Below the pieces are notes generated by a model that saw only the letters and a list, made by a program, of their open reading frames with translations, did not search any database and had not been told where the DNA came from. The position numbers and the translations under genes were made by a program. A stretch of DNA of 64,000 bases from Tissierellales bacterium. Lineage in GTDB: Bacteria; Bacillota; Clostridia; Tissierellales; Sedimentibacteraceae. The stretch lies in assembly GCA_018433765.1 (NCBI GenBank), contig JAHDQO010000013.1, positions 124,001 through 188,000 on the forward strand. The letters are read 5' to 3'. Positions 7,239 to 46,436 of the stretch are shown here, in pieces (within the stretch, counting starts at the first letter, position 1; the number at the start of each line of letters is the position of its first letter).

Positions 7239-7267
7239 TTGACTCCGAACAAAAGTTCGATTATAAT
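7239..7267 (+). promoter_or_regulatory. Sigma-A promoter with LexA/SOS box in the spacer
   Basis: TTGACT (7239-7244), a 17-base spacer and TATAAT (7262-7267) make a near-perfect vegetative promoter. The spacer contains the perfect palindrome CGAACAAAAGTTCG (7246-7259), matching the Gram-positive LexA (DinR) operator pattern CGAAC-N4-GTTCG. A repressor bound there would block RNA polymerase. The ComK-like gene starts 52 bases after the -10. Confidence 0.75.
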
Positions 7268-7318
7268 TATAAATAAGCCTTTGCAGTAAAAATATTTCAA
7301 ATATAAGGGGATGTAAAA

Positions 7319-7828
7319 ATGCAAGAAATATTACAAAATGAAGGTATAGAAGTTTTAATACCTAAATATGAAGAAAATATAGGAGATTGCACTAAAATAA
7401 TAACAAACTTTAAAGAAACAATAATAAATAAAAGTATTAAAAGTTGTATCAACTCAATAGCAGATTATTATTGCATAAATTTGAAATCAAACAGAAAATA
7501 TTACGGACGAGAACTAGGCATAAAAAATAAAGTACCCATAATAATAAACAGTCAAATAATTTATATACCATTTAAAGCAAGAAAACCACTTTGTAAAAAT
7601 GATTCAGCTTCAGGTTATATAAATATAATGAATATATCCAAAATTGCTCAACAAAATAAAAAAGGAATATTCATTACAAAAACAAATAAAAAAATAATTA
7701 CATATCAAACAGAAATAACACTAAGAAAAGAACTAAACTACGGCAAACTAGCAAAATTACTATACTACCAAAAAAACTACATCCAAACCAATATAGCCGA
7801 AACCCCAGAACCATACAAACCTGATTAA
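7319..7828 (+). CDS. ComK-like competence transcription factor family protein
   Basis: A 169-residue protein resembling ComK in its middle part: GRELGIKNKVPIIINSQ followed by IIYIPFKARKP, then GYINIMNISKI and a C-terminal helix with KLAKLLYYQ. These correspond by eye to the ComK core (K-P-P-I..Q-I-F-L-F-P, then H-V-H-V-K-E and a terminal helix). ComK binds AT boxes upstream of DNA-uptake genes in bacilli; clostridial homologues are poorly studied. No other competence gene is in the window. ATG 7319 follows AAGGGGATG. Its promoter carries a perfect LexA-type box, so expression may follow DNA damage. Family call moderately sure, role inferred. Confidence 0.6.
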   Translation: MQEILQNEGIEVLIPKYEENIGDCTKIITNFKETIINKSIKSCINSIADYYCINLKSNRKYYGRELGIKNKVPIIINSQIIYIPFKARKPLCKNDSASGYINIMNISKIAQQNKKGIFITKTNKKIITYQTEITLRKELNYGKLAKLLYYQKNYIQTNIAETPEPYKPD

Positions 7829-8003
7829 CCACAGAAGTACACGGAAACACACGGAAAGGGAAAATATATAACTAATACACTTCTATTAATATGTGCGAAG
7901 CACTTTTCAGTGTTCTTCCGTGTAATTCCGTGGTTAATAAAAAAATAGTTTTTTCACGTGCGAAGCACTTTTTAGTGTTCTTCCGTGTATTTCCGTGGTT
8001 AAT
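7825..8003. repeat. Three TTCCGTG repeats, one inverted and two direct
   Basis: 7825-7860 is an inverted copy (TTAACCACAGAAGTACACGG). 7892-7938 and 7958-8003 are direct copies, each opening with TGTGCGAAGCAC or CGTGCGAAGCAC (a small GTGC-GAA-GCAC hairpin) and ending in CCGTGGTTAA. Short open frames running through them (7891-8073, 7995-8246) reflect the repeats and are not genes. The rest of the 440-base gap holds a promoter for the SLH gene. Confidence 0.85.
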
Positions 8004-8055
8004 TATAAAATGTCAGAAAAAACCTCAAATTTTAACAGGAAAATTAGGAAAATAC

Positions 8056-8083
8056 TTTACAATTTACAATTAAGTTGTATAAT
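8056..8083 (+). promoter_or_regulatory. Candidate promoter for the SLH protein gene
   Basis: TTTACA (8056-8061), a 16-base spacer and TATAAT (8078-8083), about 185 bases ahead of the start codon. This implies a long leader. I see no known riboswitch in it. Confidence 0.5.
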
Positions 8084-8268
8084 AGAGATTGATTACAAAA
8101 AATTAAATAATATAACAAATTTTTTAAGCAATAACATTCAACGAAATAATATGAAATATAGAATTATAACTATATTTTTTACTAGAAGAAATCATATTTT
8201 TTTCATCTGTTTTAGCTATTTAATTCTTATTTCATTTTATTGTTAATTAAAAAGAAGGGAGAAAAAGG

Positions 8269-10389
8269 ATGAATAATTTAAAAAAGTTTTTATTATTTAC
8301 TTTAATTGCATTCATGATAATTCCAGGAATATGTGACGTTAATGTACTTGCATTAGAAGAGCAAAAAGAAGCAAGTACAAAAGATCAAGACACAATAAGT
8401 GATGAAGACCAAAAATTAATAGAAGAATTTACAGAGGGTGTTTTTGCTCTCAAAGAAAAGGACATATTTATTGACTTAGTAGAGTTATTACATGAGATAA
8501 GTGATTCAGCAGGATTTTCTGATGCTTACTCTAAAGCTTTAGGAAAATTAACTAGTTCTCAACAAAGTCGTTTAGAAAATTATCAATTAACAGCTGATGC
8601 TGTTAAAGGATTTTCACAATTTATGAAAGATAATGAGTTTTCAGTAGAAGCATTAAAAAACTATTTAAAAGAAGATAGTGAAAATATTGATGATAATAAG
8701 GAAGCTTTTGCTGAACAAATTGCAGAAAGAGTTAATGAGTTTAAGACAGCGTTAGAAACAGCAGGGGTTGTTGATGCTAAACAAGAAGCGTTAAAATCAG
8801 GTTTTGCTCAAATGAATAAGATATTTGGTATTTTAGATGATTTTCAAGCTTTATATACTTTAGGTCTTAAACCTGCAGTTTTTGAATCAAAAAAAATAGG
8901 TGGAGATTTTACATTAAACCGTAAAAATGGTGAAACACTTATAAATTTAGCAAATAAACATCTTAAGGATGGTATTGAGGATAAAGATTCTGTATTGAAT
9001 GGTTTTCAAGAATTTGTTGATTATTATAATGGACTGGAATCAGAAGATAAAAATTTAGTATATAATTATCTTAATGATTTAAAATTAGTAAAACGTGAAT
9101 CAAGCTCAGAACCAAGCACTGGCGGCGGTGGCGGCGGTGGTGACCCTGAACCATCAGATGAAGAAGAACAAATACCGTCAGACAATGTACAAGATGAACT
9201 AGATTCAAAAGTAAAAGTAGAATTAAAACCTGTAATTACTTCTTCAGGAACATTAAAAGCAACTGTTTCATCTTCTAATCTTAAAGATGCATGGAAAAAG
9301 ACTCAAGAAGTATTAAAAGAAATAAAAGATAAAACAGAAGATACTAATAAACAAATTAAAAATAAAATTGTTCTTGAAGTACCAAAAACAGATGATGTAG
9401 AAAAAGTAAATATTGCTTTACCAGTAAAAGACATTCAGAATCTTGAAAAAGATGGATTAGATGTTTTACAGATTAATTCACAAGTAGGTAGTGTTGAATT
9501 TGATACATCTAGCATCATAGATAAAGGTCAATCTGCTAAGAATATTACATTTTCAATAAAAGCTGTTTCAGATGTAACAAGTAAAGAAGTTCCAAAAGGC
9601 TCTATTGTAGTTGATTTCAATTTATCAATTGATGGAGATAAAGTAACAAAATTTAATTCACCTATTAAATTATCAATACCATATGAACCAAAAAAAGGCG
9701 ATAATAAAGATGAAATAACTGTGTACTTATTACAAGACGATAATAAATCCATTCCTGTAGGAGGTATATATAACAAAACTACATGTAAAGTTGAATTTAC
9801 AACTAATCATTTCAGTAAATATTATGCTAAAAAATCTAGAGTTTCATTCAATGATGTAGATAAAGATTATTGGGCTAAAGATTATATTGAAATTCTAGCA
9901 GGTAAAGGAATCATTACTGGAAAAGAAAAAGGATTATTTGATCCAACAGCTAGTATAACTCGTGCAGAGTTTGTTGCTTTAATAAATAGAATGCTAAATT
10001 TAGTTGAAACAGATAAAATTGTACCATTTACAGACATTGATAAATCTGAATGGTATGCAGAAGAAATTACTCCAGCATATCAAACTGGATTAATTAACGG
10101 TAGATCAAGTACTACATTTGCACCTAATGCTCCAATTACTAGACAAGAAGTGGCACTTGTTGTTGAAAATACACTTAAATATTTAGGTTATAATACTGAA
10201 AAAAGCAGTAAATTAATAAAAAATAAATTTGCAGATTATGATGATATTGACTCATGGGCTATTAAAGCAGTATCTACAGTATATAGAGAAGAAATCATAA
10301 GCGGTAAACCAAACAATATGTTTGATCCAAAAGGCAATGCATCAAGAGCAGAAGTAGCAAAAATGATGTACATATTATTTAAAAAATAA
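8269..10389 (+). CDS. Secreted SLH-domain surface protein
   Basis: A 706-residue exported protein. The N-terminus has two Lys and a hydrophobic stretch ending near residue 28 (signal peptide). Residues 40-275 are mostly helical and acidic, followed by a Ser/Thr then Gly-only linker (about 285-291) and an acidic stretch. Residues 310-510 look like a beta-rich surface domain. Three SLH motifs follow, starting near 527 (FNDVDKDYW..), 587 (FTDIDKSEW..) and 654 (FADYDDIDSW..), the last two carrying ITR and ASR variants of the conserved ITRAE. SLH domains bind pyruvylated secondary wall polymer, so it likely coats the cell wall. ATG 8269 follows AAGAAGGGAG. It could be an acceptor for the glycan made by the neighbouring locus; that is inference. 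Confidence 0.9.
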   Translation: MNNLKKFLLFTLIAFMIIPGICDVNVLALEEQKEASTKDQDTISDEDQKLIEEFTEGVFALKEKDIFIDLVELLHEISDSAGFSDAYSKALGKLTSSQQSRLENYQLTADAVKGFSQFMKDNEFSVEALKNYLKEDSENIDDNKEAFAEQIAERVNEFKTALETAGVVDAKQEALKSGFAQMNKIFGILDDFQALYTLGLKPAVFESKKIGGDFTLNRKNGETLINLANKHLKDGIEDKDSVLNGFQEFVDYYNGLESEDKNLVYNYLNDLKLVKRESSSEPSTGGGGGGGDPEPSDEEEQIPSDNVQDELDSKVKVELKPVITSSGTLKATVSSSNLKDAWKKTQEVLKEIKDKTEDTNKQIKNKIVLEVPKTDDVEKVNIALPVKDIQNLEKDGLDVLQINSQVGSVEFDTSSIIDKGQSAKNITFSIKAVSDVTSKEVPKGSIVVDFNLSIDGDKVTKFNSPIKLSIPYEPKKGDNKDEITVYLLQDDNKSIPVGGIYNKTTCKVEFTTNHFSKYYAKKSRVSFNDVDKDYWAKDYIEILAGKGIITGKEKGLFDPTASITRAEFVALINRMLNLVETDKIVPFTDIDKSEWYAEEITPAYQTGLINGRSSTTFAPNAPITRQEVALVVENTLKYLGYNTEKSSKLIKNKFADYDDIDSWAIKAVSTVYREEIISGKPNNMFDPKGNASRAEVAKMMYILFKK

Positions 10390-10397
10390 ATATAGTT

Positions 10398-10423
10398 AGG
10401 TTGGGGGTATAATCCCCCAACTT
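10398..10423 (+). terminator. Hairpin terminator after the SLH gene
   Basis: GTTGGGGG (10400-10407) pairs with CCCCCAAC (10414-10421) across a TATAAT loop, extended by G-T and A-T pairs. The following tract is only weakly T-rich, so read-through into the next gene is possible. Confidence 0.65.
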
Positions 10424-10469
10424 ACCTTTATAGCTTTTGTAATCTAAAGAGCGAAAGGAATACACAAAT

Positions 10470-11210
10470 ATGAGTAAAAAAAATATATTTGTATTTAGCA
10501 TAGGAATTATAGTTATATTAATAACCAGTTTATTTATAGTAAATATTTTAAATAATATGAATACAGAAAAATATAAAGTAGATGATAATTATATTTCCAA
10601 AACAACAAAAGAACCAGATACAGTTAAGAATATTGATAAAATAAACGAAAACATACAAAATGAAAAAACAAAAATTGAACCAGAACTAATAAATACAGAA
10701 ATAGAAAAAGAAAACATAGAAGATAAAAAAGAAGATGTAATACAAGAACAACAAGAAGAAGAATTAGTTGAAAAAGTTGAACCACAAGAAAAAATTGCAG
10801 AAAAACCAATTGAAAAGTATGAAGAATCAGAAAAATCAAAACCACAAACAATAAAAGAAGAAATAATACCAGAAGTAACACCAATAGAAGAAAAACAAAA
10901 TGAAAATATAGATGAACAAATAGAACAACCGCAACAGCAAGAAGAAGAATTTGTAGAATACACTGGTAACGAATGGGCAGACGAAAAAGTCAATGAACAT
11001 AAAGATGAAATAGTAGATGACGATTTAGATGAAGGTATATCAATTGGAGAAAAACTCGATAGTGATAAAATACAAGAACTATTAGAAGATGGTTTAACAG
11101 AAGAAGAAGAAAAAGAACTCAAATCATACTTACTAGAAACATTAACCACAAAAGAATACCAAGCACTAAAAGACTTGTACAGTAAATATAATCACATACT
11201 AGAAGAATAG
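10470..11210 (+). CDS. Membrane-anchored acidic low-complexity protein of unknown function
   Basis: A 246-residue protein not assigned to a family. One N-terminal hydrophobic segment (about residues 6-28, after M-S-K-K) would anchor it with the rest outside. Residues 45-165 are very rich in Glu, Lys, Gln, Pro and Ile, like a wall-spanning spacer. The C-terminal 65 residues look folded and helical (GEKLDSDKIQELLEDGLTEE, then a second helix). ATG 10470 follows GCGAAAGGAA. It lies 80 bases after the SLH gene and may be co-expressed with it. An anchor or scaffold at the cell surface is possible. The opposite strand also has a long open frame, which is only the complement of the E/K-rich codons. 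Confidence 0.6.
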   Translation: MSKKNIFVFSIGIIVILITSLFIVNILNNMNTEKYKVDDNYISKTTKEPDTVKNIDKINENIQNEKTKIEPELINTEIEKENIEDKKEDVIQEQQEEELVEKVEPQEKIAEKPIEKYEESEKSKPQTIKEEIIPEVTPIEEKQNENIDEQIEQPQQQEEEFVEYTGNEWADEKVNEHKDEIVDDDLDEGISIGEKLDSDKIQELLEDGLTEEEEKELKSYLLETLTTKEYQALKDLYSKYNHILEE

Positions 11211-11327
11211 TACATTATTGATGCATTATAAATTATTATTAAGATGTATTAAAAAACAAATATAAAATAAATATAAATAACAAATAATTAAAAACAGCTA
11301 ATTATTAAATCAATAGTACATCATCGC

Positions 11328-11550
11328 GTCATCCTGAGCGAAGTCGAAGGATCTAGTACCTAAATAAAGCAATATACTAAAGATTCATATAATTATAAAT
11401 AACAAATAAAGAATTTGAACAAAAAATTAATAGGTAGCAAGAAGAGTTATGCATGTTTTCCAACATACCAACATTACAACTCTTCCAACTTTTAACTATC
11501 ACCTACAACCGCGTCATCCTGAGCGAAACAAAGTGTAGTCGAAGGATCTA
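11328..11550 (+). repeat. Two GTCATCCTGAGCG repeats in the gap before the Cps genes
   Basis: The 473-base gap 11211-11683 has no gene. Copies at 11328-11354 and 11513-11550 both read GTCATCCTGAGCGAA..GTCGAAGGATCTAGTACCT, followed by an A/T stretch with AAAGCA. The second copy has about 12 extra bases inside. Near 11632-11665 there is an AT-rich block of ATTAACTATACATTATCAAT-type words that recurs at 6275. Confidence 0.8.
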
Positions 11551-11683
11551 GTACCTAGATAAAGCAGTATAATAAAAAACAAAAAATAAATATAAATTAA
11601 TAAAAAATTTTAGTTAAAAAATTTTTAACCATTAACTATACATTATCAATTGTCAATTATCAACTAATAAAGGGGTGGTTACA

Positions 11684-12433
11684 ATGGTAGATATACACAC
11701 TCATATACTATACAACATAGACGATGGCTCAAAGTCCAAAGAAGAAACAATAGAAATGTTAAAAATCGCTGTAAAAGATGGTACAAAAACTATATTTGCA
11801 ACACCTCATTATATATACGGAGTTAACAGCTATACAGCAAATCAATTAGAAAATAGATATAAAGAAATAGTTCAATATATTAAAGATGAAAAATTACCTC
11901 TACAGCTTATTTTAGGCAACGAGGTCTTTATAGATGAAAATATTGTCGATGCACTAATAACTGGTGATTGTCATGCATTAGGAGACAGCAATTATGTACT
12001 AACTGAATGTTATAACAATGCTAAAATAGAATTTATTAAACCGATTTTATATAAAATGATGTTAAATAATTATAAACCAATTATGGCACATGTTGAAAGA
12101 CTTATACATTGTCAAGATGATATAGAAAAAATTGAAGAGTTAAAAGATATAGGATGTCTACTTCAAGTCAATGCTGGATCAATTACACATCCTAAAAGCA
12201 GAAACGATAAAAAAATAATTTATAAACTTCTTAAAGATGAAAAAATTGATTTTATTGCATCAGATGCACATAATACAAGAAGTAGAAAACCTGGATTAAA
12301 AAAAGCATATACCATTGTCAGAAAAAAATTTGGACAAACATTAGCTGATGATGTTTTTATAAATAACCCTAATATAATTATACATAACTATACAAATGCA
12401 GAGGGAGGTATAGCTTGTGGAACAAGAATATGA
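11684..12433 (+). CDS. PHP-type tyrosine-protein phosphatase (CpsB/CapC/YwqE family)
   Basis: A 249-residue PHP-fold enzyme. Metal-binding motifs are visible: MVDIHTHILYNIDDG at the start, ATPHY near residue 45, a Glu in GNEVF, MAHVERL at about 145 and ASDAH near 205. Family members remove phosphate from the Tyr cluster of the cognate kinase using a Mn-type metal centre and so control glycan assembly. ATG 11684 follows AGGGGTGG; a GTG at 11675 lies in that site. The gene overlaps the next by 17 bases, showing translational coupling with the CpsC/CpsD pair. Confidence 0.9.
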   Translation: MVDIHTHILYNIDDGSKSKEETIEMLKIAVKDGTKTIFATPHYIYGVNSYTANQLENRYKEIVQYIKDEKLPLQLILGNEVFIDENIVDALITGDCHALGDSNYVLTECYNNAKIEFIKPILYKMMLNNYKPIMAHVERLIHCQDDIEKIEELKDIGCLLQVNAGSITHPKSRNDKKIIYKLLKDEKIDFIASDAHNTRSRKPGLKKAYTIVRKKFGQTLADDVFINNPNIIIHNYTNAEGGIACGTRI

Positions 12434-31429: not shown

Positions 31430-32884
31430 ATGAGTAGATTGTATAAAAAAGCAGGCGGTACTTTTATATTGAAAACATTTGGACTTGGTATTGCCTTTAT
31501 TTTTCAAATTATCTTAGGTCGTATGCTAAACCCTGAATTATATGGTGAATACACAATGTATCTAACATACTCGACAGTATTTTCAATAATATCAATTTTG
31601 GGTATGGATAGAAATCTAATAAAAGAAGTGGCAAAATATGAGGAAGACGAAAGTAAATGCAAAGATTTTTTAAAATTTTCAATCAAAATATCTTTTATAA
31701 TAACAGTTTTAATTGCAGTCATACTGCTTTTGATAAGAAAATATATCTATTTAACAGGATTTGGATATTTATTATTGCTTTCAATGATTATAATAAGGTC
31801 TATTGTTGCATTATTAGATGGATATTTGCAAGGAAAAGGGTTAATTGTACAGGTAACGATTTTAAATTCAGTATTTAACAATATATTAAAAATGATACTA
31901 TTCATTGTATTTGTTGTTTTTATTGATATTGATAGCTTGAATGCAGCTTTGTTCAGTTTTATTATTAGTGAGTCTATAACAATAATTTTAAGATCAAAGC
32001 AAGTTAATAAAATTGTAGTCACTAATAATAATATAAAGCATTTTTTAAATAAAACAGAAAAGACAACATTTCTAAAGTATTCAATAACGGTAGCGTTAAT
32101 TTCAGGAATTGGATTGATGCTCCAAAACATTGATAAAATAATAATATCTGCATACTTAGATTTGAGTAGTGTTGGTATTTATAAGGTTGCACAGAACTAT
32201 GTGAGACTGATTAGTGTATTTGTTACACCTTTCATCGCTTTTTGGCCTGTAATTTCTAAACTTTATAATGAAAACAAAACAGATCAGATAGAAGTAGAAA
32301 TGAAAAAAATTGTTAGGATTGTTACATATCTCGTTATTCCTATGTTTTTTATATTTTTTATTTTAAGTGATGATTTATTGAGAATTTTTGGTGAAGCGTA
32401 TGTAACAAAAGAAGCAAAGTTAGCATTAATTATTTTAGCGTTCTCGTTCCTGATAGACGCAATATCGGGTCCTATAGGTTCGATATTGACAATGACTAAG
32501 TATGCAAGGTATGCACTGTATAATAATATTATTTCGTTGTTGATTAATGTTGTTTTAAACTTGCTTTTAATTGAGAGATATGGAATTGTAGGAGTTGCAA
32601 TTGCTACGGGAATAAGCATAATAGCAAATAATCTGATTTCAATAATTGAAGTGAAATTGTTATTAGGAGTATTTTCGTATGACTTTAAGAATTTGTTTCA
32701 AATACTATATTTAGCTATTTTTAATTTGGTAATAATTAAGATTTTTTTATCTTATTTGAGTTTTGATAGTATTTATTTAAATGTAATTATTAATGGTTTG
32801 GTATTATATTTTTTAAATGCAATTTTGTATTTTATACTAAATTATAAAAAGATTAGACTCCAATATGTTAGGAGGAGATTATAA
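31430..32884 (+). CDS. Wzx-type oligosaccharide flippase
   Basis: A 484-residue MOP/MATE-superfamily protein with about twelve to fourteen hydrophobic segments. It begins LYKKAGGTFILKTFGLGIAF, with GRMLNPELYGEY near residue 30, the usual N-terminal pattern of this family, and a VGIYKVAQNYVRL repeat-like motif near 250. It moves undecaprenyl-linked repeat units across the membrane. A GGAGGAG just before its TAA likely serves the next gene. A second flippase is at 42829. Confidence 0.88.
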   Translation: MSRLYKKAGGTFILKTFGLGIAFIFQIILGRMLNPELYGEYTMYLTYSTVFSIISILGMDRNLIKEVAKYEEDESKCKDFLKFSIKISFIITVLIAVILLLIRKYIYLTGFGYLLLLSMIIIRSIVALLDGYLQGKGLIVQVTILNSVFNNILKMILFIVFVVFIDIDSLNAALFSFIISESITIILRSKQVNKIVVTNNNIKHFLNKTEKTTFLKYSITVALISGIGLMLQNIDKIIISAYLDLSSVGIYKVAQNYVRLISVFVTPFIAFWPVISKLYNENKTDQIEVEMKKIVRIVTYLVIPMFFIFFILSDDLLRIFGEAYVTKEAKLALIILAFSFLIDAISGPIGSILTMTKYARYALYNNIISLLINVVLNLLLIERYGIVGVAIATGISIIANNLISIIEVKLLLGVFSYDFKNLFQILYLAIFNLVIIKIFLSYLSFDSIYLNVIINGLVLYFLNAILYFILNYKKIRLQYVRRRL

Positions 32885-32886: not shown

Positions 32887-33621
32887 ATTAAAATAGTACA
32901 AGAGATAAAAGCTACTAAAAATCTATCACTAAAAACATATTTTTTAAGTTCGTTTTTGATATCAAATAGGATATCACCATATGTATCAATGATTTATATT
33001 AAGTTAGGAGTAATCCCGAATATTATAACAATTCATATGATATTAAGTGGAATATTAGGTGCTATTCTATTTTCATTTCCATACTTGTGGTTGAAAATAT
33101 TAGGTGCAGTTATGATACATTTATGGTTTATACTTGATTGCTCTGATGGAGAAGTGGCTAGATATACTAAAAAATATTCTAAATATGGTAAAGAGCTAGA
33201 TTACATGGCTCATTTAATTAACCATCCATTATTTGGAATGTCTTTATTTTTTTCTCTTTTTCAAATGGGTAAATATGATTTTTATCCACTTTTGTTAATA
33301 GTAATAGCGAGTAATTTTTTAGATTATTTAAATAGAAATTTAAACACATTAAACTTAGTAGTGGATATAAAAAAACAAATTAAGAATAAAGGATTTATGC
33401 CAGTTGCTGAAAATTGGACCATGAAGAAAATTATTTTGTTTTTTACAAATATTTTTACAATATACCCAAATTTAATACTATTTGGAGTGATTATTTATTT
33501 TATAGATTATTTTGTTGGTACAAATATTTTATTCTCTTATTTAATCCTGAATGTTGCTTTAACTGCAATATTTTCAATTAGAAGTTTATTTAAGTTCACA
33601 AAGAAATTTTATAACTCATAA
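32887..33621 (+). CDS. CDP-alcohol phosphotransferase family membrane protein
   Basis: It carries D-C-S-D-G-x2-A-R-x8-G-x3-D-x3-H, the CDP-alcohol phosphotransferase motif with the last Asp replaced by His. About five membrane segments surround it. It would move a phospho-alcohol group from a CDP-alcohol to a lipid or glycan. The first ordinary start is TTG 32956, with no ribosome site. The frame is open further upstream and reads a family-like N-terminus (K-I-V-Q-E-I-K-A-T-K-N-L-S-L-K), and GGAGGAG at 32871 points to ATT 32887 or ATA 32884. I use 32887, but the start is uncertain. The next gene fuses a cytidylyltransferase to a CobD-like enzyme, which could supply its CDP-linked substrate. 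Confidence 0.8.
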   Translation: MKIVQEIKATKNLSLKTYFLSSFLISNRISPYVSMIYIKLGVIPNIITIHMILSGILGAILFSFPYLWLKILGAVMIHLWFILDCSDGEVARYTKKYSKYGKELDYMAHLINHPLFGMSLFFSLFQMGKYDFYPLLLIVIASNFLDYLNRNLNTLNLVVDIKKQIKNKGFMPVAENWTMKKIILFFTNIFTIYPNLILFGVIIYFIDYFVGTNILFSYLILNVALTAIFSIRSLFKFTKKFYNS

Positions 33622-33630
33622 GGTGAAAGG

Positions 33631-35454
33631 ATGATGAAAATGCAAGCAATTATTTTAGCGGCAGGTATGGGGAAAAGACTGAAGGAATTGACCAATGACA
33701 ATACGAAATGTATGGTAAAAGTAAACGGAGTTACAATGATTGAGCGTATGCTCAGACAATTAGATGAGTTGGAACTATCTAGTATTGTAATTGTAGTTGG
33801 TTATAAAAGAAAAGAGTTGATTGACTATATATCAACATTAAACGTTAAGACTCCAGTTGTTTATGTTAATAATGAAATCTATGACAAGACTAATAATATA
33901 TACTCTTTGTACTTAGCACGTAACTATTTATTAAAAGAAGACACTTTGTTATTAGAATCTGATTTGATATTTGAAGATGAGGTATTACATAGGATTGTTA
34001 AAGATCCTTATTCAAGTCTTGCCTTAGTTGCAAAATACGAAAGTTGGATGGATGGAACTGTAGTAACGATAGATGAAGATAATAATATTAGAAGTTTCCT
34101 TGGGAAGAAACAATTTAAATTTGAAGATATTAAAAACTACTATAAAACAGTAAATATTTATAAGTTTAGTCGTGAATTTTCAAATAGTCATTATGTTCCT
34201 TTCTTGGAAGCATACAGCAAAGCACTTGGTAATAATGAATATTATGAGCAAGTTCTCAAAGTGATTACTTTACTGGAGAAACCTGAAATAAAAGCATCAG
34301 TACTAGAGAGTGAACAGTGGTATGAAATTGATGACATCCAAGATTTGGACATAGCAGAATCAATTTTCACTACTTCGGTAGATGATAAACTAAAGAGATT
34401 TCAAAATCGATATGGTGGCTATTGGAGATATCCGAATTTGATTGACTTTTGTTATCTTGTTAATCCTTTTTATCCATCACAGAAGCTTTTAGATGAGATT
34501 AAAGCTAATTTTGAAAGGTTGATTACCGAGTATCCATCTGGTATGGGTGTGAATAGTCTATTAGTGGCTAAATACTTTGGATTAAAACAGGATCACATAG
34601 TTGTAGGTAATGGGGCTGCAGAGCTTATTAAATCATTGGTGGAGAATTTTGAAGGCAAAGTTGGTCTAGTATTGCCTACTTTTGAAGAATATCCAAATAG
34701 ATACTCTAAAGATGATACGATAATATTTACACTGCAGAATGATAATTTTAAATATGACGAAGAAGATCTAATTAAATACTTTTCAGATAAGAATATCTCA
34801 ACTATGTTGATTATTAATCCGGATAATCCTTCTGGGAATTATATTAAAAAATCTGGTGTATTAAAATTGGCTAAATGGGCTGATACAAAATCAATAAAAC
34901 TTGTCATAGATGAATCGTTTGTTGATTTTGTAGATATAGAAGAAGATACAAGTCTTCTGAGCGATGAGATAATCAATGAATATGGTAATTTAATTGTTGT
35001 TAAGAGCATCTCAAAATCGTATGGTGTTCCTGGCTTGAGATTAGGTGTTTTAGCTTCAAAAAACAAAGAACTAGTTGATTTTATTAAAAAAGATGTAGCT
35101 ATTTGGAACATTAATTCATTCGCTGAATTCTATTTGCAGATATTTGAAAAGTATAAAAATGATTATAAACTTGCAATAAATGATTTCTATACTGTTAGAA
35201 AAAATTATTCAGAGAAACTTTCATCTATTAATAATCTTAGAGTTATACCATCACAAGCAAACTATATTCTTTGTGAGGTACTTAATGGATATAAAGCTAC
35301 TGAATTGACAAAGATATTGCTAGATCGTTATAATTTGCTAATCAAAGATTTATCAACTAAAAAAGGATTTGAAGGAGAGTTTATTAGAGTTGCAGTAAAG
35401 AGACCTAAAGAAAATGATAAGCTTGTTGAGGCTATAACGCAAGTTTTAAACTAG
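33631..35454 (+). CDS. Fused nucleotidyltransferase and CobD/HisC-like PLP enzyme
   Basis: A 607-residue two-domain protein. Residues 5-240: a sugar-phosphate/phosphocholine-type nucleotidyltransferase (AIILAAGMGKRLKELT, CMVKVNGV, metal-binding LLLESDLIFED near 112). Residues 255-607: a fold-type I PLP enzyme (VVGNGAAELIK, INPDNPSGN, DESFVDF near 427, PLP Lys462 in SISKSYG, then VPGLRLGVL). The PGLRLG and D-E-x-F-x-D-F patterns resemble CobD, L-threonine-phosphate decarboxylase, more than HisC. A likely reading: phosphoserine or phosphothreonine is decarboxylated to a phospho-amino-alcohol, then coupled to CMP for the CDP-alcohol transferase upstream. It could instead be an aminotransferase. 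Confidence 0.82.
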   Translation: MMKMQAIILAAGMGKRLKELTNDNTKCMVKVNGVTMIERMLRQLDELELSSIVIVVGYKRKELIDYISTLNVKTPVVYVNNEIYDKTNNIYSLYLARNYLLKEDTLLLESDLIFEDEVLHRIVKDPYSSLALVAKYESWMDGTVVTIDEDNNIRSFLGKKQFKFEDIKNYYKTVNIYKFSREFSNSHYVPFLEAYSKALGNNEYYEQVLKVITLLEKPEIKASVLESEQWYEIDDIQDLDIAESIFTTSVDDKLKRFQNRYGGYWRYPNLIDFCYLVNPFYPSQKLLDEIKANFERLITEYPSGMGVNSLLVAKYFGLKQDHIVVGNGAAELIKSLVENFEGKVGLVLPTFEEYPNRYSKDDTIIFTLQNDNFKYDEEDLIKYFSDKNISTMLIINPDNPSGNYIKKSGVLKLAKWADTKSIKLVIDESFVDFVDIEEDTSLLSDEIINEYGNLIVVKSISKSYGVPGLRLGVLASKNKELVDFIKKDVAIWNINSFAEFYLQIFEKYKNDYKLAINDFYTVRKNYSEKLSSINNLRVIPSQANYILCEVLNGYKATELTKILLDRYNLLIKDLSTKKGFEGEFIRVAVKRPKENDKLVEAITQVLN

Positions 35455-35480
35455 AATGGTATGTAAGGAGATGAAGGAAT

Positions 35481-36437
35481 ATGAAAATTTTATCACATAA
35501 AGATATTATGAGTTTGAATATAGACCCTTTAAAGTGCTATCAATGGGTTGAACATATGTTGCATGAGAAAGACAAGGTGATATTACCTGCAAAAACAAGT
35601 ATTAAACCTACCGAAGAAATATTTTATAACGTGATGCCTTCAATCTTACCTGAACATAATTCTGCAGGATTGAAGGTAGTTACTAGATATCCGTCTAGAG
35701 TTCCATCCCTAGATAGTCAGATTATGATATTTGATTATAATAATGGAAAAATAAATGCGTTAATAGATGGCAACTATATAACAACCATGCGAACAGGAGC
35801 TGCTGCAGCTCATTCAATAAAACTATTAGCAAAAGAAGAGTTTGAAAAAATTGGAGTCATTGGATTAGGTAACCAAGCAAGAGCAACAGTTAAAGTCTTA
35901 TCAACAATTTTTCAAGATAAAAGGATAAAGCTTAAACTTTTTAAATATAAAGATCAGCATAAGGCTTTTGAAGAATATGTGAAAAATTTTCCGAATGCTG
36001 ATAATATTATAGTCGAATTTTGTGATACTTACAAAGATACTATTAAAGGTAGTGATGTTATAATATCTTCAGCAACCTATTTTGCTAATGACATCTGTGA
36101 TAATAATTGTTTTGATGAAGGTTGTTTAGTCGTTCCTATTCATACAAGAGGATTCATGAATTGTGATTTAGCTTTTAATAAAGTATTTGCAGATGATACA
36201 GATCATGTTAAAGGTTTTAAGTATTTTGGTAAGTTTAAAAGTTTTGCAGAAATTTCGGACATATTAAGTGGAAAAGTTAAAGGTCGAGAAAATAATAAGG
36301 AAAGAATTCTGGTGTATAACATTGGTTTGTCAATTCATGATGTATATTTTGCTGAACAAATATATGGAATTGCAACTGAGAGAGGTATTGGGACCGAAAT
36401 TGATTTATATTCTCCAACTGATAAGTTTTGGATTTGA
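35481..36437 (+). CDS. Ornithine cyclodeaminase/mu-crystallin family protein
   Basis: A 318-residue NAD(P)-binding protein. The substrate half has KVVTRYPSRVPSLDSQIMIFD near residue 65 and TTMRTGAAAAHSIKLL near 95. The Rossmann part has IGVIGLGNQARATVKVL near 122 and DVIISSATY near 190. The family includes ornithine cyclodeaminase, alanine dehydrogenase-like enzymes and SbnB-type amino-acid dehydrogenases. Following the CDP-alcohol and CobD-like genes closely (27-base gap), it may make or recycle an amino acid used there. Substrate not predictable. Confidence 0.82.
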   Translation: MKILSHKDIMSLNIDPLKCYQWVEHMLHEKDKVILPAKTSIKPTEEIFYNVMPSILPEHNSAGLKVVTRYPSRVPSLDSQIMIFDYNNGKINALIDGNYITTMRTGAAAAHSIKLLAKEEFEKIGVIGLGNQARATVKVLSTIFQDKRIKLKLFKYKDQHKAFEEYVKNFPNADNIIVEFCDTYKDTIKGSDVIISSATYFANDICDNNCFDEGCLVVPIHTRGFMNCDLAFNKVFADDTDHVKGFKYFGKFKSFAEISDILSGKVKGRENNKERILVYNIGLSIHDVYFAEQIYGIATERGIGTEIDLYSPTDKFWI

Positions 36438-36960
36438 TATGTTAAGTTAAGATCAACTTTTGCATCTCACCTAACTCTACAATCGAATAACTAATCCATA
36501 TGAAGCAGAGTTGTGACATGGAGAACAAAAGATAATGATAGTTAAAGTGAGTTGGGAGAGATGTAGATTAACTATATGCTTTAATTGAAGCTGGTTGAGT
36601 AATAGTTGATTCAGATTAATTTAGTGTTGCAGAGATTATAGACTGATGGATGAGTTGATATAAGACACCATTGCATGTCGGTAAGTACGAATAACAGAAA
36701 TTATACAATCAGATTATTCTTTGATGAAGATGCTTTATTTAGCAACAGGAGATATAATCAAGAGATAGATTAGACCTTATGATAATTGGGATTTTGTTAT
36801 AAATAAACTAATTAGAAAGTATATATCATAAGATAGATGCAATAACTACAGTAAACTTCAAAAAAAGGCAATTTAGTATTTTGAGAAAACAAAAATATCA
36901 CCTCTACTTTTTATATTTTGTGTGCTTTAAATTTTATAGAAGATAGGACCCAAAAACATA
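36438..36960. other. Gene-free stretch, probably decayed coding DNA
   Basis: No frame longer than a few dozen codons is open. The base composition of 36540-36840 is less AT-extreme than typical gaps here, and short protein-like runs are broken by stops in every frame, so it may be an eroded gene. I cannot name it. Confidence 0.35.
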
Positions 36961-37002
36961 ATAGTATACACGAAAAATTTTACTGGATTTATAGATATAA
37001 TT

Positions 37003-37660
37003 TAATTAGACGTTTGTTCATTTAAGCTATCTACGCAAAACAACATTAAATCTTTTAAACCTACATTTTTTAATCCATTTAATACTGATAAGCAAAATTT
37101 TGATGTTTCATTTTTAGCAATATTTATTGATAGAATTTATTTAGAACCTTCATTATTAACAACCTACTATATATGTAGTTTTTGAAACTATATGATTCTT
37201 CACGAATTTTAAAATGATAGTATCATAAATATCAAAGCATACATTTTTGCTAAAGGTTTTTTTGACAATTTGCTATCTTTGATAAAAGCTTATTTGTTAT
37301 ATTCCTTACCTTTTCTGTTATATATCTATTTTATATAGTTTTTTAATTTGTTTCTGAATTTTCTTTGTTGAAATACCTCTTGCATATGGTGAAATAGCTT
37401 TTTGTTATTAAACTGAAATATCTCTATTATACTTTGGTACAATGTTTGGTTTAAATTCTTTTTTCTATCTTATGTAACATCTATTTCATATTTTGAATGC
37501 TGTTTTTACATTCTTTTTTGAGAATTTATTCTCTGAATTATCAATTCTTTTTCTGATATATTATATTTTCCATATCTTGAATGTTCATTTAACTTTTACT
37601 GTAAAACATCCTTAAACATCTCTTTTAATGTAGTTGATACGTAATCTATTTTTGTAATAT
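37003..37660 (-). pseudogene. Decayed IS256-family transposase
   Basis: On the minus strand, conserved pieces of an IS256 (mutator-type) transposase appear in order but in different frames. An N-terminal LKEMFKDVLQ and a Y-E-I-D-V..DRKKEFKPNIVPKYNRDIS-like run come first. Then a SPYARGISTKKIQKQI run lies at about 37400-37325, matching the usual S-x-Y-A-R-G-M motif. Last, ETSKFCLSVLNGLKNVGLKD with F-C-V-D-S-L lies at about 37116-37003, matching the W-L-S-V-L-N-x-L-K-N-R-G catalytic-region stretch. Many stops and frame changes; the C-terminal third was not found. No terminal repeats recognised. Confidence 0.75.
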
Positions 37661-37817
37661 TACTTGTTTATGAAAAAAATACTTATTAAAAAATATTCTT
37701 TGAATTATATTCTAATTTTCATCAAAAAGGCTTTGTTTAATTAACTTTGTACAAATTTATTTATGGACTCTAAAAAATATTTGATAATTTAACTAACTTT
37801 GGATAGAATTAATTTTT

Positions 37818-37848
37818 ATTGACAGTAACACTCGTCAATGTTTTTTAT
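37818..37848 (+). terminator. Small hairpin with T run
   Basis: ATTGAC pairs with GTCAAT across 10 bases, followed by GTTTTTT. The stem is only 6-7 bp. It sits between the decayed transposase and the next glycan gene. Weak call. Confidence 0.35.
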
Positions 37849-37964
37849 TAAACCTATAATCTCTAGTATAAATTACAAAACTAATATTCCAATCATTAAT
37901 TTTTTATGATATTCTATATTATAGTTTTTAGTGATAGTGCTCGTTTTTAAGGGGGTACACTTTT

Positions 37965-39308
37965 ATGAAAAATAAAATACAACTATCAATAAATACATTA
38001 CTAATTATCTTAATGCCTTTAATGATGTATATAACGGTAAGTGATACTAAGATTAACTTTTCAATTGCTGATATTGTTCTTGTTTTAATTGGAATTTTAT
38101 TTTTAATTAATATTAAAGAATTCTTTGTTAATAAAAGATGGATTTATATTCTTTATTTTGTAGGATTACTAATAAGTTTATTATTATCTCAGTTTATAGG
38201 AAAGTTTAATGATGATTTTCTTTATGTATCTAATAACGTAATGTTTATGGAAATGGTGAAAACTGTTGTAGTAGGGATGTATTTTTTTAGTGCTTTTATG
38301 TTTATTAGAAATGAAAAGACTTATAGAATATCTCTTATTACTATATCGTTAAGCAGTATTCCAGTTTTTATAATTGGTATTTCATCTTATATTTACTTTT
38401 TACTAGGTAAAGATTTTATTATTGATGCATTTGAAATTCATCAATTAAGATTTTTAGGAACTTTTGAAGATCCTAATCTTTGTGCCTTATATTTTATAGT
38501 TATAGTTTTTGTAAGTTTCTTAAATTTTAAGGTTGTAAAGAATAAGTTTCTTAAATATTTAATGTTTTGTATTAGTATAATTTCATTGATAGCTATCGTT
38601 CTTACCATGTCCAGAGGTGGGTGGTTAGCATTTGCAGGAGCTAGTATAGTTTTTGTTATATTGAATATAAGAAATTTTAAAAAGGAAAGTATATTATTTG
38701 TTATTCCTATTATCATTGTATTATTAGTTTCTTTAAATATTGATTATAGTTTGCAAGATGGTAAGATAACAAATCATATGGTAAATAGGGTACAAAATTC
38801 TTTAAGTAAAGATAATAATGAGATAGATAGAGTGCAGCTTATGAAAGCTGCTGTTAATATGGGAAATGATAATTTTTTCTTTGGTGTTGGTAAAGGCAGT
38901 TTTCCTTTGAACTCTTATAAATATTTGGGTGAGGATAGTCCCAGATATAAACAAAAAAATATTCCTCATAATACCATATTAGGATTTTATGCTCAGCAAG
39001 GAATAGTAGGAGTGTTGATGTTCATCATACTTCCTAGCTTTATTTTATATCTTATGATAAAATCTAAAAGGAGACAAAATATATATTTAATTTCTCTTTT
39101 CATTGGTTTGTTTATACACTCGATGACAATAAATGTTGAAAATGTTAGATTTCTGTGGTACATATTCGGAGTAATGCTAGCAGGAGAAAAAATAAATATT
39201 GATCTAGATTTTGTGCCTGTTGCTAAAATTAATAATAGAAAGTATGCTGTAATTGTTTCTATTTTGTTGTTATTAGCACTAGGACTTTGTTTTAAGTTAT
39301 TACATTAA
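37965..39308 (+). CDS. O-antigen ligase/polymerase family membrane protein
   Basis: A 447-residue polytopic protein with about eleven hydrophobic segments. MSRGGWLAFAGASI near residue 214 and PHNTILGFYAQQGIVG near 328 are the two landmark motifs of the Wzy_C/WaaL family, including the His after Pro. It is distinct from the 2089 protein: shorter, no big insert. It is the first gene of the second glycan block and probably polymerises or ligates that glycan. ATG 37965 follows AAGGGGG. Confidence 0.83.
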   Translation: MKNKIQLSINTLLIILMPLMMYITVSDTKINFSIADIVLVLIGILFLINIKEFFVNKRWIYILYFVGLLISLLLSQFIGKFNDDFLYVSNNVMFMEMVKTVVVGMYFFSAFMFIRNEKTYRISLITISLSSIPVFIIGISSYIYFLLGKDFIIDAFEIHQLRFLGTFEDPNLCALYFIVIVFVSFLNFKVVKNKFLKYLMFCISIISLIAIVLTMSRGGWLAFAGASIVFVILNIRNFKKESILFVIPIIIVLLVSLNIDYSLQDGKITNHMVNRVQNSLSKDNNEIDRVQLMKAAVNMGNDNFFFGVGKGSFPLNSYKYLGEDSPRYKQKNIPHNTILGFYAQQGIVGVLMFIILPSFILYLMIKSKRRQNIYLISLFIGLFIHSMTINVENVRFLWYIFGVMLAGEKINIDLDFVPVAKINNRKYAVIVSILLLLALGLCFKLLH

Positions 39309-41086: not shown

Positions 41087-41713
41087 ATGATTGTAAAATA
41101 TTTATTTGATAAAATATTTTCTTTATTACTAATTATACTATTATCACCATTTTTTATTATTATCTCTATCTTAATAAAGTTAGATAGTAAAGGTTCTGTT
41201 TTTTTTATACAGGAAAGAGTAGGAAAAAATCATAAATTATTTAACATCTACAAATTTAGAACAATGGTTCCTGATGCGATCAATAAAGGTAATGGTGTAT
41301 ATACAGAGAAAGATGATCCTAGAATAACCAGGATTGGAAAGTTTTTAAGAAATACAAGTTTAGATGAATTACCTCAATTATTGAATATTTTGAAAGGTGA
41401 TATGAGTATTATAGGTCCAAGACCAACTTTGGAGTATCAAGTAAAGCAGTATGATGATTTTCAGAAAAAAAGATTACTGATGAAACCAGGGGTTACTGGA
41501 CTTGCTCAGATAAGAGGAAGAAATAGTATAAGTTGGTCGGAGAGAATAAAGCATGATGTTGAGTATATTGAAAATTGGTCCATATGGCTTGATATAAAAA
41601 TACTTGTTAAGACGGTTTTTGTGATTTTTAAAAAAGAGGGTATTTATGGTGGAAAAGAAAACTTTATAATAAGTGATGATAAGAAGGATAATTATGAAAA
41701 CAAAAGTGTTTGA
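41087..41713 (+). CDS. Initiating sugar-phosphate transferase, PglC-like
   Basis: A 208-residue monotopic phosphoglycosyl transferase like that at 15451: N-terminal re-entrant helix with PFF, KFRTMVPDA, catalytic NTSLDELPQLLNIL, GDMSIIGPRP and GVTGLAQIRGRN. The short core form (no extra N-terminal membrane block) is that of PglC, which moves diNAcBac-1-phosphate to undecaprenyl phosphate. It follows the PglE- and PglD-like genes directly and overlaps the next by 20 bases. Confidence 0.9.
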   Translation: MIVKYLFDKIFSLLLIILLSPFFIIISILIKLDSKGSVFFIQERVGKNHKLFNIYKFRTMVPDAINKGNGVYTEKDDPRITRIGKFLRNTSLDELPQLLNILKGDMSIIGPRPTLEYQVKQYDDFQKKRLLMKPGVTGLAQIRGRNSISWSERIKHDVEYIENWSIWLDIKILVKTVFVIFKKEGIYGGKENFIISDDKKDNYENKSV

Positions 41714-44943: not shown

Positions 44944-45540
44944 ATGATTGATAAACGAAAAATAATTGAGAAATTCACAAAACACGGAGGAATCCTAAAA
45001 ACAGCAGAGTTAAATGACATGGGTTTGAGTAGTCGTCAAATTAAAAAGCTTCTTGAAGAAGGTGAAATATCAAAAATAAAGCATGGTTTTTATGAACTTG
45101 CCGATGAAGTGAATTCGGAGGAAATAATTATAGCGAGACTTTTTCCTAAAGCGGTTATATTTCTTGAAAGTGCACTTTTACATTATAACTATACTGATAG
45201 AATACCAACGGCTTGGCAGATAGCGGTGGATAGAGATAGTGAAAAAAGCCAGTATGATATAGAGTATCCACTGATAGAACCTTACTATCAAAAATCTAAG
45301 TTTCTAAGTATTGGTGTTTCAATGGTTGAAGTTCAAGGAATAGAAGTTAAAATTTTTGATAGGGATCGTACCATATGTGATATTATGCGCTATGAAAAGA
45401 AACTTGAGAAAGAAGTTTTTTCTAATGCAGTGATGCGATACTTAAAAGATCCCCAAAGGAACATTAGACATCTCTTTGAATATGCTAAAAAATTTAATAT
45501 TACGAAAAAAATACAATCGCAGATAGGAAAGTGGCTATGA
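44944..45540 (+). CDS. abiEi: AbiEi-type antitoxin (type IV toxin-antitoxin)
   Basis: A 198-residue protein with an N-terminal winged helix-turn-helix of the AbiEi type (IIEKFTKHGGILKTAELND then LSSRQIKKLLEEG, KIKHGFYEL) and the C-terminal AbiEi domain (ESALLHYNYTDRIPTAWQIAVDRD). The antitoxin represses the operon and counteracts the toxin without direct binding in studied pairs. ATG 44944 follows GAGGTG. The stop overlaps the toxin start (ATGATGA), a sign of coupling. Confidence 0.88.
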   Translation: MIDKRKIIEKFTKHGGILKTAELNDMGLSSRQIKKLLEEGEISKIKHGFYELADEVNSEEIIIARLFPKAVIFLESALLHYNYTDRIPTAWQIAVDRDSEKSQYDIEYPLIEPYYQKSKFLSIGVSMVEVQGIEVKIFDRDRTICDIMRYEKKLEKEVFSNAVMRYLKDPQRNIRHLFEYAKKFNITKKIQSQIGKWL

Positions 45541-46436
45541 TGAATTATTCAAGTGCATCTATACTAGCAAGATTAAAAAATAAAGCAAAAGTAGAAGGTA
45601 TTGCCTTCCAGCAGCTGTTAAACTTGTTTTTTCAAGAAGAGTTTATCAGAAGACTGGCTCAGAGTAATTATAGAGAACAACTCATTCTTAAGGGCGGGTT
45701 TCTCTTATATTCAATCAGCGGCTTTACCACAAGACCTACTGTTGATGCTGATTATTTATTAAAGAGTCACTCTAATGAGCTAGGTTCAGTGGAGAAATTA
45801 GTCCGTTCAATTATAAACCAAAGCAGTAACAATGAATTGATGGAAATTGAGATCCGTAGCATTGAACCAATTAGTGAAATGAAAGAGTATCATGGAATTC
45901 GTGTAAATCTAATAGGTTATATAGGGAAAACAAAGACACCATTTAGTATTGATTTTGGCGTAGGAGATACTATTGTTCCGTCTGCATTAACAAGAACACT
46001 ACCTGTTTTGCTGGAGGGGTTTGATAAACCGACTATTCTCACGTATTCCTTAGAATCAACAATTTCAGAAAAACTTGATGCTATCATTCGCTTCATGGAA
46101 GCGACAGGACGGATGAAAGACTTTTACGATATTTATTATCTCGCTACTTCCTTTGAATTTGAAGGCAGAAAAATACAAGAAGCGATTTATGAAACCTTTT
46201 CGAAAAGAGGAACACCATATGAAAAAGATTCAATCCAAGTAATAAATAGGCTGAGTACAAATGATGCTATTATTACTAGATGGAATATCTTCTGTAAAAA
46301 GGTTCTAAAATATGAACTTGAATTAAATGAAGTAATAAAATGTATCATTTCATTTTTAGATCCGCCTTTTCAAGCAATGATTAATGATGATGAGGTACTC
46401 AAAAATTGGAACTCAAACAAAAGGCAATATGAATAA
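45537..46436 (+). CDS. abiEii: AbiEii-type nucleotidyltransferase toxin
   Basis: A 299-residue DNA-polymerase-beta-fold nucleotidyltransferase. The family motif LILKGGFLLYSISGFTTRP with DADYL near residues 60-85 holds the G-G/S and D-x-D catalytic pattern; SEKLDAIIRF and RMKDFYDIYYL are further family motifs. AbiEii toxins modify RNA or other targets and cause reversible growth arrest, giving phage abortive infection. I chose ATG 45537 (4-base overlap with the antitoxin stop) over GTG 45531. The pair interrupts the glycan block. Confidence 0.88.
   Translation: MMNYSSASILARLKNKAKVEGIAFQQLLNLFFQEEFIRRLAQSNYREQLILKGGFLLYSISGFTTRPTVDADYLLKSHSNELGSVEKLVRSIINQSSNNELMEIEIRSIEPISEMKEYHGIRVNLIGYIGKTKTPFSIDFGVGDTIVPSALTRTLPVLLEGFDKPTILTYSLESTISEKLDAIIRFMEATGRMKDFYDIYYLATSFEFEGRKIQEAIYETFSKRGTPYEKDSIQVINRLSTNDAIITRWNIFCKKVLKYELELNEVIKCIISFLDPPFQAMINDDEVLKNWNSNKRQYE

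Follow-up and report, generated by a model that had tools for sequence, protein, structure and literature searches.

A 64,000-nucleotide stretch of a Tissierellales bacterium genome (assembly GCA_018433765.1, contig JAHDQO010000013.1, positions 124,001 to 188,000; hereafter the window) carries, within a polysaccharide operon, three adjoining genes whose products would together make and transfer an amino-alcohol activated with cytidine diphosphate (CDP). The central gene encodes a fusion of a cytidylyltransferase-like domain with a pyridoxal phosphate (PLP) domain, which would act as an L-phosphoserine decarboxylase and cytidine triphosphate (CTP):phosphoethanolamine cytidylyltransferase. This fusion, acting with a reductase of the ornithine cyclodeaminase (OCD) family and a phosphotransferase, is the best overall explanation of our results, and we hold it with moderate confidence. 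Its parts differ in strength: a role of the fusion in CDP-amino-alcohol synthesis is highly likely, CDP-ethanolamine is the probable product, and a glycan is somewhat favored over a lipid as the acceptor. A sequence-only reading of the window had proposed that a phospho-amino acid is decarboxylated to yield a CDP-amino-alcohol for the decoration of a glycan or lipid; this core idea is, we infer, the best reading of the locus. The three genes on which it was based are all present on the + strand and have Pfam support:

32887..33621, + strand: CDP-alcohol phosphotransferase-like membrane protein (PF01066, 42.9 bits, cut-off 22)
33631..35454, + strand: fusion protein of 607 amino acids, putative cytidylyltransferase and PLP decarboxylase (domain hits, alignment, structure model, tree)
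33640..34380, + strand: N-terminal LicC/PntC-type cytidylyltransferase domain, residues ~4-250 (NTP_transf_3, fold of LicC 1jyk, Lys26)
34396..35451, + strand: C-terminal PLP fold-type I domain, residues ~256-607, with Lys462 (fold of 6oux, tree grouping with SMUL_1544)
35481..36437, + strand: ornithine-cyclodeaminase/mu-crystallin (OCD) family protein (PF02423 OCD_Mu_crystall, 112.4 bits, cut-off 24)

In the proposed pathway, the fusion would convert O-phospho-L-serine and CTP to CDP-ethanolamine, possibly with cytidylylation first, as described for the enzyme FrbH; the OCD-like enzyme would, with NAD(P)H, reduce the imine that (CDP-)ethanolamine forms through its amine with a 2-oxo acid, to yield an N-(1-carboxyalkyl) derivative of the opine type; and the CDP-alcohol phosphotransferase-like protein would move the phospho-amino-alcohol to the surface polysaccharide of the operon or to its lipid carrier. 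Because CDP-ethanolamine would be derived from phosphoserine, free ethanolamine and an ethanolamine kinase would not be needed. The domains, the conserved residues, the grouping with SMUL_1544 and the recurrent adjacency of reductase and phosphotransferase genes were obtained by computation, and from here we infer the substrates, the reaction order, the N-carboxyalkylation and the acceptor.

Architecture and conservation of the fusion

The fusion unites in a single protein an N-terminal NTP_transf_3 domain with a catalytic lysine (residues 6-125, 44.9 bits, cut-off 27) and a C-terminal class I/II PLP domain (Aminotran_1_2, residues 301-602, 97.3 bits, cut-off 19.7). A scan of species genomes with three full-length query sequences matched at least 592 stretches, of which 515 encoded a relative; the best 80 of these were kept, and since all 80 were full-length fusions (59-73% identical to the window protein), the fusion is not a chance open reading frame (ORF). 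Lys26 of the nucleotidyltransferase and Lys462 of the PLP domain were invariant in all 47 aligned full-length fusions, a subset from which one sequence (L051) was left out because its start motif was not recognised, and the same was true of D427-E428-S429-F430, D432-F433 and P467-G468-R470-L471-G472. The CobD-type motifs named in the sequence-only reading are all real, with D-E-S-F-V-D-F at 427-433, the PLP lysine at 462 and V-P-G-L-R-L-G at 466-472.

A structure model built from the 47 sequences had a mean predicted local distance difference test score (pLDDT) of 87.4. Its N-terminal domain has the fold of LicC (1jyk; Z 26.3, root-mean-square deviation (rmsd) 2.1, 226 aligned) together with the catalytic lysine. 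The C-terminal domain best matched 6oux, the structure of SMUL_1544 (Z 32.8, rmsd 3.1, 356 aligned), followed by CobD 1lkc (Z 31.5, rmsd 3.1, 339 aligned) and the HisC-type structure 3get (Z 30.1, rmsd 3.0, 327 aligned).

Affiliation of the PLP domain

By sequence, the best PDB match of the PLP domain was again 6oux (E 6.7e-49), titled 'Structure of SMUL_1544, a decarboxylase from Sulfurospirillum multivorans'; this protein was reportedly the subject of a study by Keller et al. in 2016. A protein of Sulfurospirillum sp. 'SP', 100% identical to SMUL_1544 over 336 columns, is annotated as a norcobamide biosynthesis serine-O-phosphate decarboxylase and is flanked by cbiB and cobU. In the more careful of two trees, 15 close fusions (support 100/99), four distant plasmid fusions (97/85) and SMUL_1544 (100/100) formed one group, with HisC as a separate group (97/95 in the group table, 97/71 as drawn); the quick tree recovered the grouping of the fusions with SMUL_1544 with a support of 99. 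The grouping of the PLP domain with SMUL_1544 is firm. Reference rows were the first 18 CobD (of 30 loci) and 14 HisC (of 20 loci) sequences that passed the length filter. The careful tree leaves out six close fusions, two of the three outgroup rows and L169, which nearly duplicates L167, and the quick tree included one misextracted row (CobD_L114, end branch 10) that is absent from the careful tree, the approximately unbiased (AU) test and the column comparison.

The motif D-x-C-Y-L-x-N-P is common to the fusions (82 of 83) and SMUL_1544, whereas CobD has a DFSANINP-like sequence and HisC is different again. Comparison by column (20 fusion, 19 CobD and 16 HisC rows) further showed CobD-type letters in the fusions at D272, F430, S459, P467, W492 and A588, where HisC has K, Y, T, A, F/Y and T, respectively. 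The PDB entry 3ftb from Clostridium acetobutylicum, titled a histidinol-phosphate aminotransferase, joined the fusion/SMUL_1544 group (92/84) and not HisC, and this label may be wrong.

The PLP domain might instead decarboxylate O-phospho-L-threonine as CobD does, in which case the product would be CDP-1-amino-2-propanol. This would be consistent with CobD being the top NCBIfam match of the fusion (TIGR01140, 168 bits, or 169.8 in a second scoring) and with the closeness of the CobD and SMUL_1544 structures in Z score. However, the domain lies nearest to a serine-O-phosphate decarboxylase in the tree (100/100), the D-x-C-Y-L-x-N-P motif is common to the fusions and SMUL_1544 but not CobD, and the genome has a separate CobD, making a phosphothreonine substrate unlikely. 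The sequence-only reading had offered phosphoserine or phosphothreonine; on the model of FrbH and SMUL_1544, phosphoserine with CDP-ethanolamine is favored and phosphothreonine with CDP-aminopropanol disfavored.

A second possibility is that the PLP domain is an aminotransferase, for example one that converts dihydroxyacetone phosphate to serinol phosphate like Cj1437, with CDP-serinol or another CDP-amino compound as the product. The HisC score of the fusion (TIGR01141, the second NCBIfam match, 152.8 bits) is near its CobD score, residues S461 and G465 are HisC-like, and in a locus that lacks the fusion (L164), OCD and octopine-dehydrogenase-family (ODH) genes adjoin two separate genes identified by eye, for a cytidylyltransferase and a class V aminotransferase. 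Passages of PMC11800397 also describe the transamination of dihydroxyacetone phosphate by Cj1437 in a capsule pathway. The grouping with SMUL_1544 and the CobD-type letters at six positions argue against an aminotransferase, which we consider improbable. A firm grouping with histidinol-phosphate or sugar aminotransferases, named in the sequence-only reading as the contrary outcome, was not seen in the best trees, but the AU test did not reject a placement on the HisC side (p 0.289).

The assignment as a phosphoserine decarboxylase also has to be set against several observations. The fusion scores under the curated cut-offs of both CobD (290.55) and HisC (276.55), and the margins between folds are small, the CobD structure (Z 31.5) coming close behind SMUL_1544 (32.8). 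CobD as a single group is weak in the careful tree (62/91), the bootstrap of that tree had not fully settled, and a tree with the fusions and HisC on one side was not rejected (p-AU 0.289). The branch to SMUL_1544 is long (2.48), S461 and G465 are HisC-type in both the fusions and SMUL_1544, where CobD has T and A, and Arg323 of CobD is replaced by Lys in 95% of the compared fusions. Given this long branch and the replacement of Arg323, a shifted substrate is possible.

Comparison with known enzymes

The sequence-only reading had regarded PntC fusions as the nearest known idea; FrbH and SMUL_1544 are nearer. FrbH, an enzyme of the FR-900098 pathway in Streptomyces that was reportedly studied by Johannes et al. 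in 2010, acts on the phosphonate isostere of phosphoserine, and its product is the isostere of CDP-ethanolamine. Passages of two papers (PMC8007912, PMC6697681) describe CTP activation and PLP-dependent decarboxylation of an amino-phosphono acid by FrbH, leading to a primary amine linked to cytidine monophosphate (CMP). Compared by description only, FrbH resembles the fusion in combining a cytidylyltransferase and a PLP decarboxylase in one protein, and differs in that it belongs to a phosphonate antibiotic cluster whereas the fusion lies in a polysaccharide operon with no phosphoenolpyruvate (PEP) mutase found. Because no PEP mutase was found with it, we regard the fusion as FrbH-like in its working and do not class it as a phosphonate FrbH. 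SMUL_1544 is the nearest protein to the PLP domain in both tree and fold and has the same D-x-C-Y-L-x-N-P motif; unlike the fusion, it stands alone, is only 27-29% identical in structural alignments and is encoded in a cobamide operon rather than a glycan operon.

PntC-AEPT of Treponema denticola (6pd1/6pd2) likewise has an N-terminal cytidylyltransferase joined to a PLP domain, and 6pd2 was the first Foldseek match. However, a PntC-AEPT-like fusion making CMP-2-aminoethylphosphonate is highly improbable. As the sequence-only reading had stated, the PLP part is of another class, being a class V 2-aminoethylphosphonate transaminase in PntC-AEPT and Aminotran_1_2 in the fusion, and 6pd1 was matched by sequence in the N-terminal domain only. 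The PntC-AEPT pathway begins with PEP mutase, according to passages of PMC6697681. The PEP mutase motif EDKxxxxxNS occurred in none of 1160 proteins from 84 loci (flanks of at most 10 kb, many of them shorter), and the one PEP-mutase-like protein found in the genome scored 136.5 bits against a cut-off of 319.55 and has EDQVAPKRCGH in place of the motif. The phosphonate reading was rejected because no PEP mutase was found in the loci examined and the PLP class is a different one.

LicC, a CTP:phosphocholine cytidylyltransferase, resembles the N-terminal domain in fold and motif, and LicD genes lie near 32 of 83 fusions; LicC uses phosphocholine, whereas the fusion domain is joined to the enzyme predicted to make its substrate. 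Cj1436 of Campylobacter jejuni, described in passages of PMC11800397 and PMC12409886 as decarboxylating serine phosphate for the capsule, would be similar to the proposed fusion as a phosphoserine decarboxylase serving a surface polysaccharide. In contrast to the pathway proposed here, the same passages have the ethanolamine phosphate of the Cj1436/Cj1437 pathway joined as an amide with ATP, with no CDP activation.

A putative, apparently exchangeable reductase beside the fusion

The neighborhoods of 83 loci (the 80 relatives from the scan, two from a genome search and the window) were searched with profiles within six genes of the fusion. An ODH gene was found in 28 loci, an OCD gene in 22, both in two and neither in 35. 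The neighboring genes came from a simple ORF caller and not from annotation, and the OCD gene of L067, which is split, is counted twice among the 52 OCD/ODH genes. Of these 52 genes, 47 were immediately adjacent to the fusion, positions that made up 151 of the 748 available, and of the adjacent genes 46 were on the same strand and 45 within 60 nt, with a median gap of 11 nt. Co-occurrence of the two families was rarer than expected (2 against 7.4; hypergeometric P 0.003, a value that ignores relatedness and short contigs), and the OCD/ODH label changed at least 13 times on the fusion tree among 46 labelled rows. Repeated replacement of one family by the other seems to have taken place beside the fusion, and this apparent exchange suggests that the OCD-like gene is probably part of the fusion pathway. 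As to whether glycan-type ODH and OCD genes also occur without the fusion, only one and two of 398 genomes, respectively, matched these genes, which is too few for comparison.

The modeled OCD protein of the window (pLDDT 92.5) was closest to archaeal alanine dehydrogenase, SbnB and pyrroline-2-carboxylate reductase (Z 34-36), and fell below the curated cut-offs of all 13 NCBIfam subfamilies that it matched, including ornithine cyclodeaminase (123.1 bits, cut-off 417), alanine dehydrogenase (98.2, cut-off 409.15) and SbnB (81.5, cut-off 326.9). The single ODH representative analysed (L065) matched octopine dehydrogenase and N-(1-D-carboxylethyl)-L-norvaline dehydrogenase and was below all 20 NCBIfam cut-offs. 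Opine dehydrogenases and OCD enzymes such as SbnB and pyrroline-carboxylate reductase have the same family and fold as the genes adjacent to the fusion, and both families include enzymes that act on the C=N bond between an amine and a 2-oxo acid. We propose N-carboxyalkylation of the amine on the basis of these C=N reductases; the prospects that the reductase carries it out are close to evenly balanced.

A candidate for the final product is N-[(R)-1-carboxyethyl]ethanolamine phosphate, which is presumably a component of Proteus. Passages of a review on Proteus mirabilis and Klebsiella pneumoniae (PMC9630907), which name no strain, list this compound as an O-polysaccharide constituent. In the parts of the literature searched, no gene was assigned to it, and the main text of a paper on Proteus O-antigen genes contained no terms for this compound or its enzymes.

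The OCD and ODH genes could, alternatively, serve otherwise beside a fusion that does make CDP-ethanolamine, for example by supplying an amino acid or an opine for attachment to a sugar through an amide bond. O-antigens are known to carry opine-type residues, alanopine among them, in amide linkage (passages of PMC10609480). Alanine dehydrogenase and SbnB are among the relatives of the OCD protein, some fusions have ATP-grasp genes nearby, and 27 of 75 labelled loci have neither reductase. The position of 47 of the 52 genes directly at the fusion with a median gap of 11 nt and the repeated exchange of the two families argue against this separate role, which we consider possible but less likely than not.

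The involvement of a reductase in CDP-ethanolamine modification is itself open to several objections. Neither family was found in 27 of 75 labelled loci (eight loci without a label and one-sided being excluded), which implies that the reductase is not obligatory. Two of the 83 loci had both OCD and ODH, as did L164, and the profiles used to count neighbors were built from clusters of those same neighbors. The link between N-carboxyethyl-ethanolamine phosphate and the fusion loci is chemical only, and does not come from the gene clusters of its producers.

In L164 (genome G352, 5883-12353), OCD and ODH genes stand side by side with two LicD genes; by eye, the locus also encodes a class V aminotransferase as well as an oxidoreductase fused with a TagD-like cytidylyltransferase. 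The genome had no match to the fusion at E 1e-40, and the locus seems to have been put together independently along the same lines.

Phosphotransferases and the proposed CDP-linked donor

A LicD-, Glyphos_transf- or CDP-OH-type gene lay within six genes of the fusion in 50 of the 83 loci (LicD in 32, Glyphos_transf in 21 and the CDP-OH type of the window in 2). The 66 other close flanking proteins on the same strand included 7 LicD, 6 Glyphos_transf, 3 CDP-OH_P_transf and 4 DUF1015 proteins. The presence of three unrelated families of CDP-dependent phosphotransferases beside one fusion is as predicted for a CDP-linked donor. We raise the tentative possibility, somewhat short of an even prospect, that CDP-N-(1-carboxyalkyl)ethanolamine, a CDP-linked opine, is a new activated donor, formed from phosphoserine by the fusion and an OCD/ODH reductase and used by several unrelated phosphotransferases of the CDP-alcohol, LicD or CDP-glycerol type.

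The ORF list opens the CDP-alcohol phosphotransferase-like gene of the window at TTG 32956. The start is probably ATT 32887, as in the sequence-only reading, because AGGAGG lies just before it and because a homolog in another fusion locus (L013 9236-9982, 248 aa, 65% identical) aligns through the part upstream of TTG 32956. The best PDB match was AF2299 (E 1.6e-6). We take the motif of CDP-alcohol phosphotransferases to be D-x2-DG-x2-AR-...-G-x3-D-x3-D. The window protein reads DCSDGEVAR...GKELDYMAH, and the last Asp of the motif, the presumed catalytic base, is His in both the window and L013; owing to this replacement, we name the protein phosphotransferase-like only. This substitution speaks against the assigned function, as does the rarity of the window type, which was limited to the window and L013 among the 83 loci and to one of 299 genomes (its own).

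DUF1015 proteins adjoin the fusion in four loci (L010, L011, L012 and L059), and in three of these the fusion is one of the closest to that of the window. A PDB search with one of these proteins and NCBIfam searches with three gave no match. DUF1015 could conceivably be a serine kinase feeding phosphoserine to the fusion, which we note as an unconfirmed lead.

Distribution of the fusion and its other genomic contexts

Record titles of the best 80 relatives named Bacillota, Bacteroidota, Verrucomicrobiota, Spirochaetota, Thermodesulfobacteriota and one archaeal metagenome-assembled genome. In the phylum of the window, 9 of 398 sampled genomes matched (E 1e-40), three with full-length fusions (its own, G325 and G409) and six with the PLP domain only, and among 27 genomes of the same family its own was the sole match at E 1e-60. 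Phage records gave five partial PLP matches only. Distant fusions on plasmids were 33-35% identical over 99-100% of the query, and relatives of the ODH type occurred in three plasmid records. Fusobacterium vincentii encodes a full-length fusion with 53% identity (L165, NZ_CP084075.1); this record is labelled a plasmid, yet has 2.1 million bases and a single annotated feature and looks like a mislabelled chromosome. No paper describing the fusion or its neighborhood in title or abstract was found among openly licensed literature.

Other genes accompany the fusion in several of these contexts. Two close fusions (L014 and L058) have a GNAT acetyltransferase as neighbor, and a methyltransferase is at position +1 in L075. 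On a plasmid of the cyanobacterium Gloeothece verrucosa (L166, 7980-11442), a distant fusion is followed by an S-adenosylmethionine-dependent methyltransferase and then LicD, a set that might allow decoration with phosphocholine made de novo from phosphoserine. On plasmids of Rahnella sikkimica and Erwinia rhapontici (L167 and L169, 6716 to ~17700), the distant fusion precedes a CDP-alcohol phosphotransferase, and the further genes encode HAD proteins (one in L167 joined to an AAC(3)-type domain), SDR, ATP-grasp and MFS proteins; as a lead from gene content, this may be an unrecognised small-molecule or lipid cluster.

The Priestia megaterium plasmid pBM700 (L168, 3534-11638) combines a distant fusion with an AAC(3)-family acetyltransferase, two ATP-grasp proteins, a 1-deoxy-D-xylulose 5-phosphate (DXP) reductoisomerase and a protein weakly like Lys/Orn oxygenases (23.6 bits, cut-off 21.3). 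PEP mutase was found in none of five plasmid records including pBM700, a search confined to plasmids. These genes correspond to the needs of a phosphate analog of FR-900098 made from CDP-ethanolamine, with a resistant target, and pBM700 is a candidate cluster for an antibiotic like fosfoxacin or fosfocytocin (background in passages of PMC9782300) with self-resistance. As leads, the plasmid and tailoring contexts agree with a fusion whose product, a primary amine linked to CDP, would be tailored by its partners.

Operon setting

The three-gene set lies between a Wzx-type flippase gene and an O-antigen-ligase-type gene, in a stretch preceded by genes that by eye resemble rmlA, rmlC, rmlB and rmlD. 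The surrounding features are:

31430..32884, + strand: Wzx-type polysaccharide flippase, directly upstream of the CDP-OH gene (PF01943, 81.6 bits)
37965..39308, + strand: O-antigen ligase/polymerase-type membrane protein (PF04932, 84.4 bits)
41087..41713, + strand: bacterial sugar transferase, initiating type (PF02397, 241.2 bits)

Between the OCD gene and the ligase-type gene, positions 36438-37964 (~1.5 kb inside the operon) contained no ORF of note and gave no match at E 1e-3 in a tblastn comparison with the 1160 neighborhood proteins; this is possibly decayed sequence. An AbiEi/AbiEii toxin-antitoxin-like pair also lies inside the polysaccharide operon (44944-46436). Elsewhere in the genome, a separate CobD (257.2 bits, itself under the TIGR01140 cut-off of 290.55) is located beside cobamide genes and HisC (TIGR01141, 328.7 bits) among his genes, with neighbors identified by eye in both cases. 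A cobamide role of the fusion was rejected in view of this separate CobD.

Implications

The proposed chemistry of the fusion is a variant of that already known from FrbH and SMUL_1544; its glycan setting, its breadth and its putative opine-type partner are new. The findings join three literatures, on the norcobamide linker, on FR-900098 biosynthesis and on phosphocholine and phosphonate tailoring. If the proposed pathway is correct, it would represent a widespread bacterial route from phosphoserine to CDP-ethanolamine for surface polymers, bypassing ethanolamine uptake and kinase, and it predicts, for many bacteria from the gut and the environment, a surface chemistry that can be tested. If the CDP-linked opine is also real, these loci would provide a genetic route to the N-(1-carboxyethyl)ethanolamine phosphate of O-polysaccharides, with candidate genes for N-carboxyethyl-phosphoethanolamine, and the same core would be tailored elsewhere by methyltransferase, acetyltransferase or N-oxygenase, making the fusion a general entry to CDP-amine decorations.

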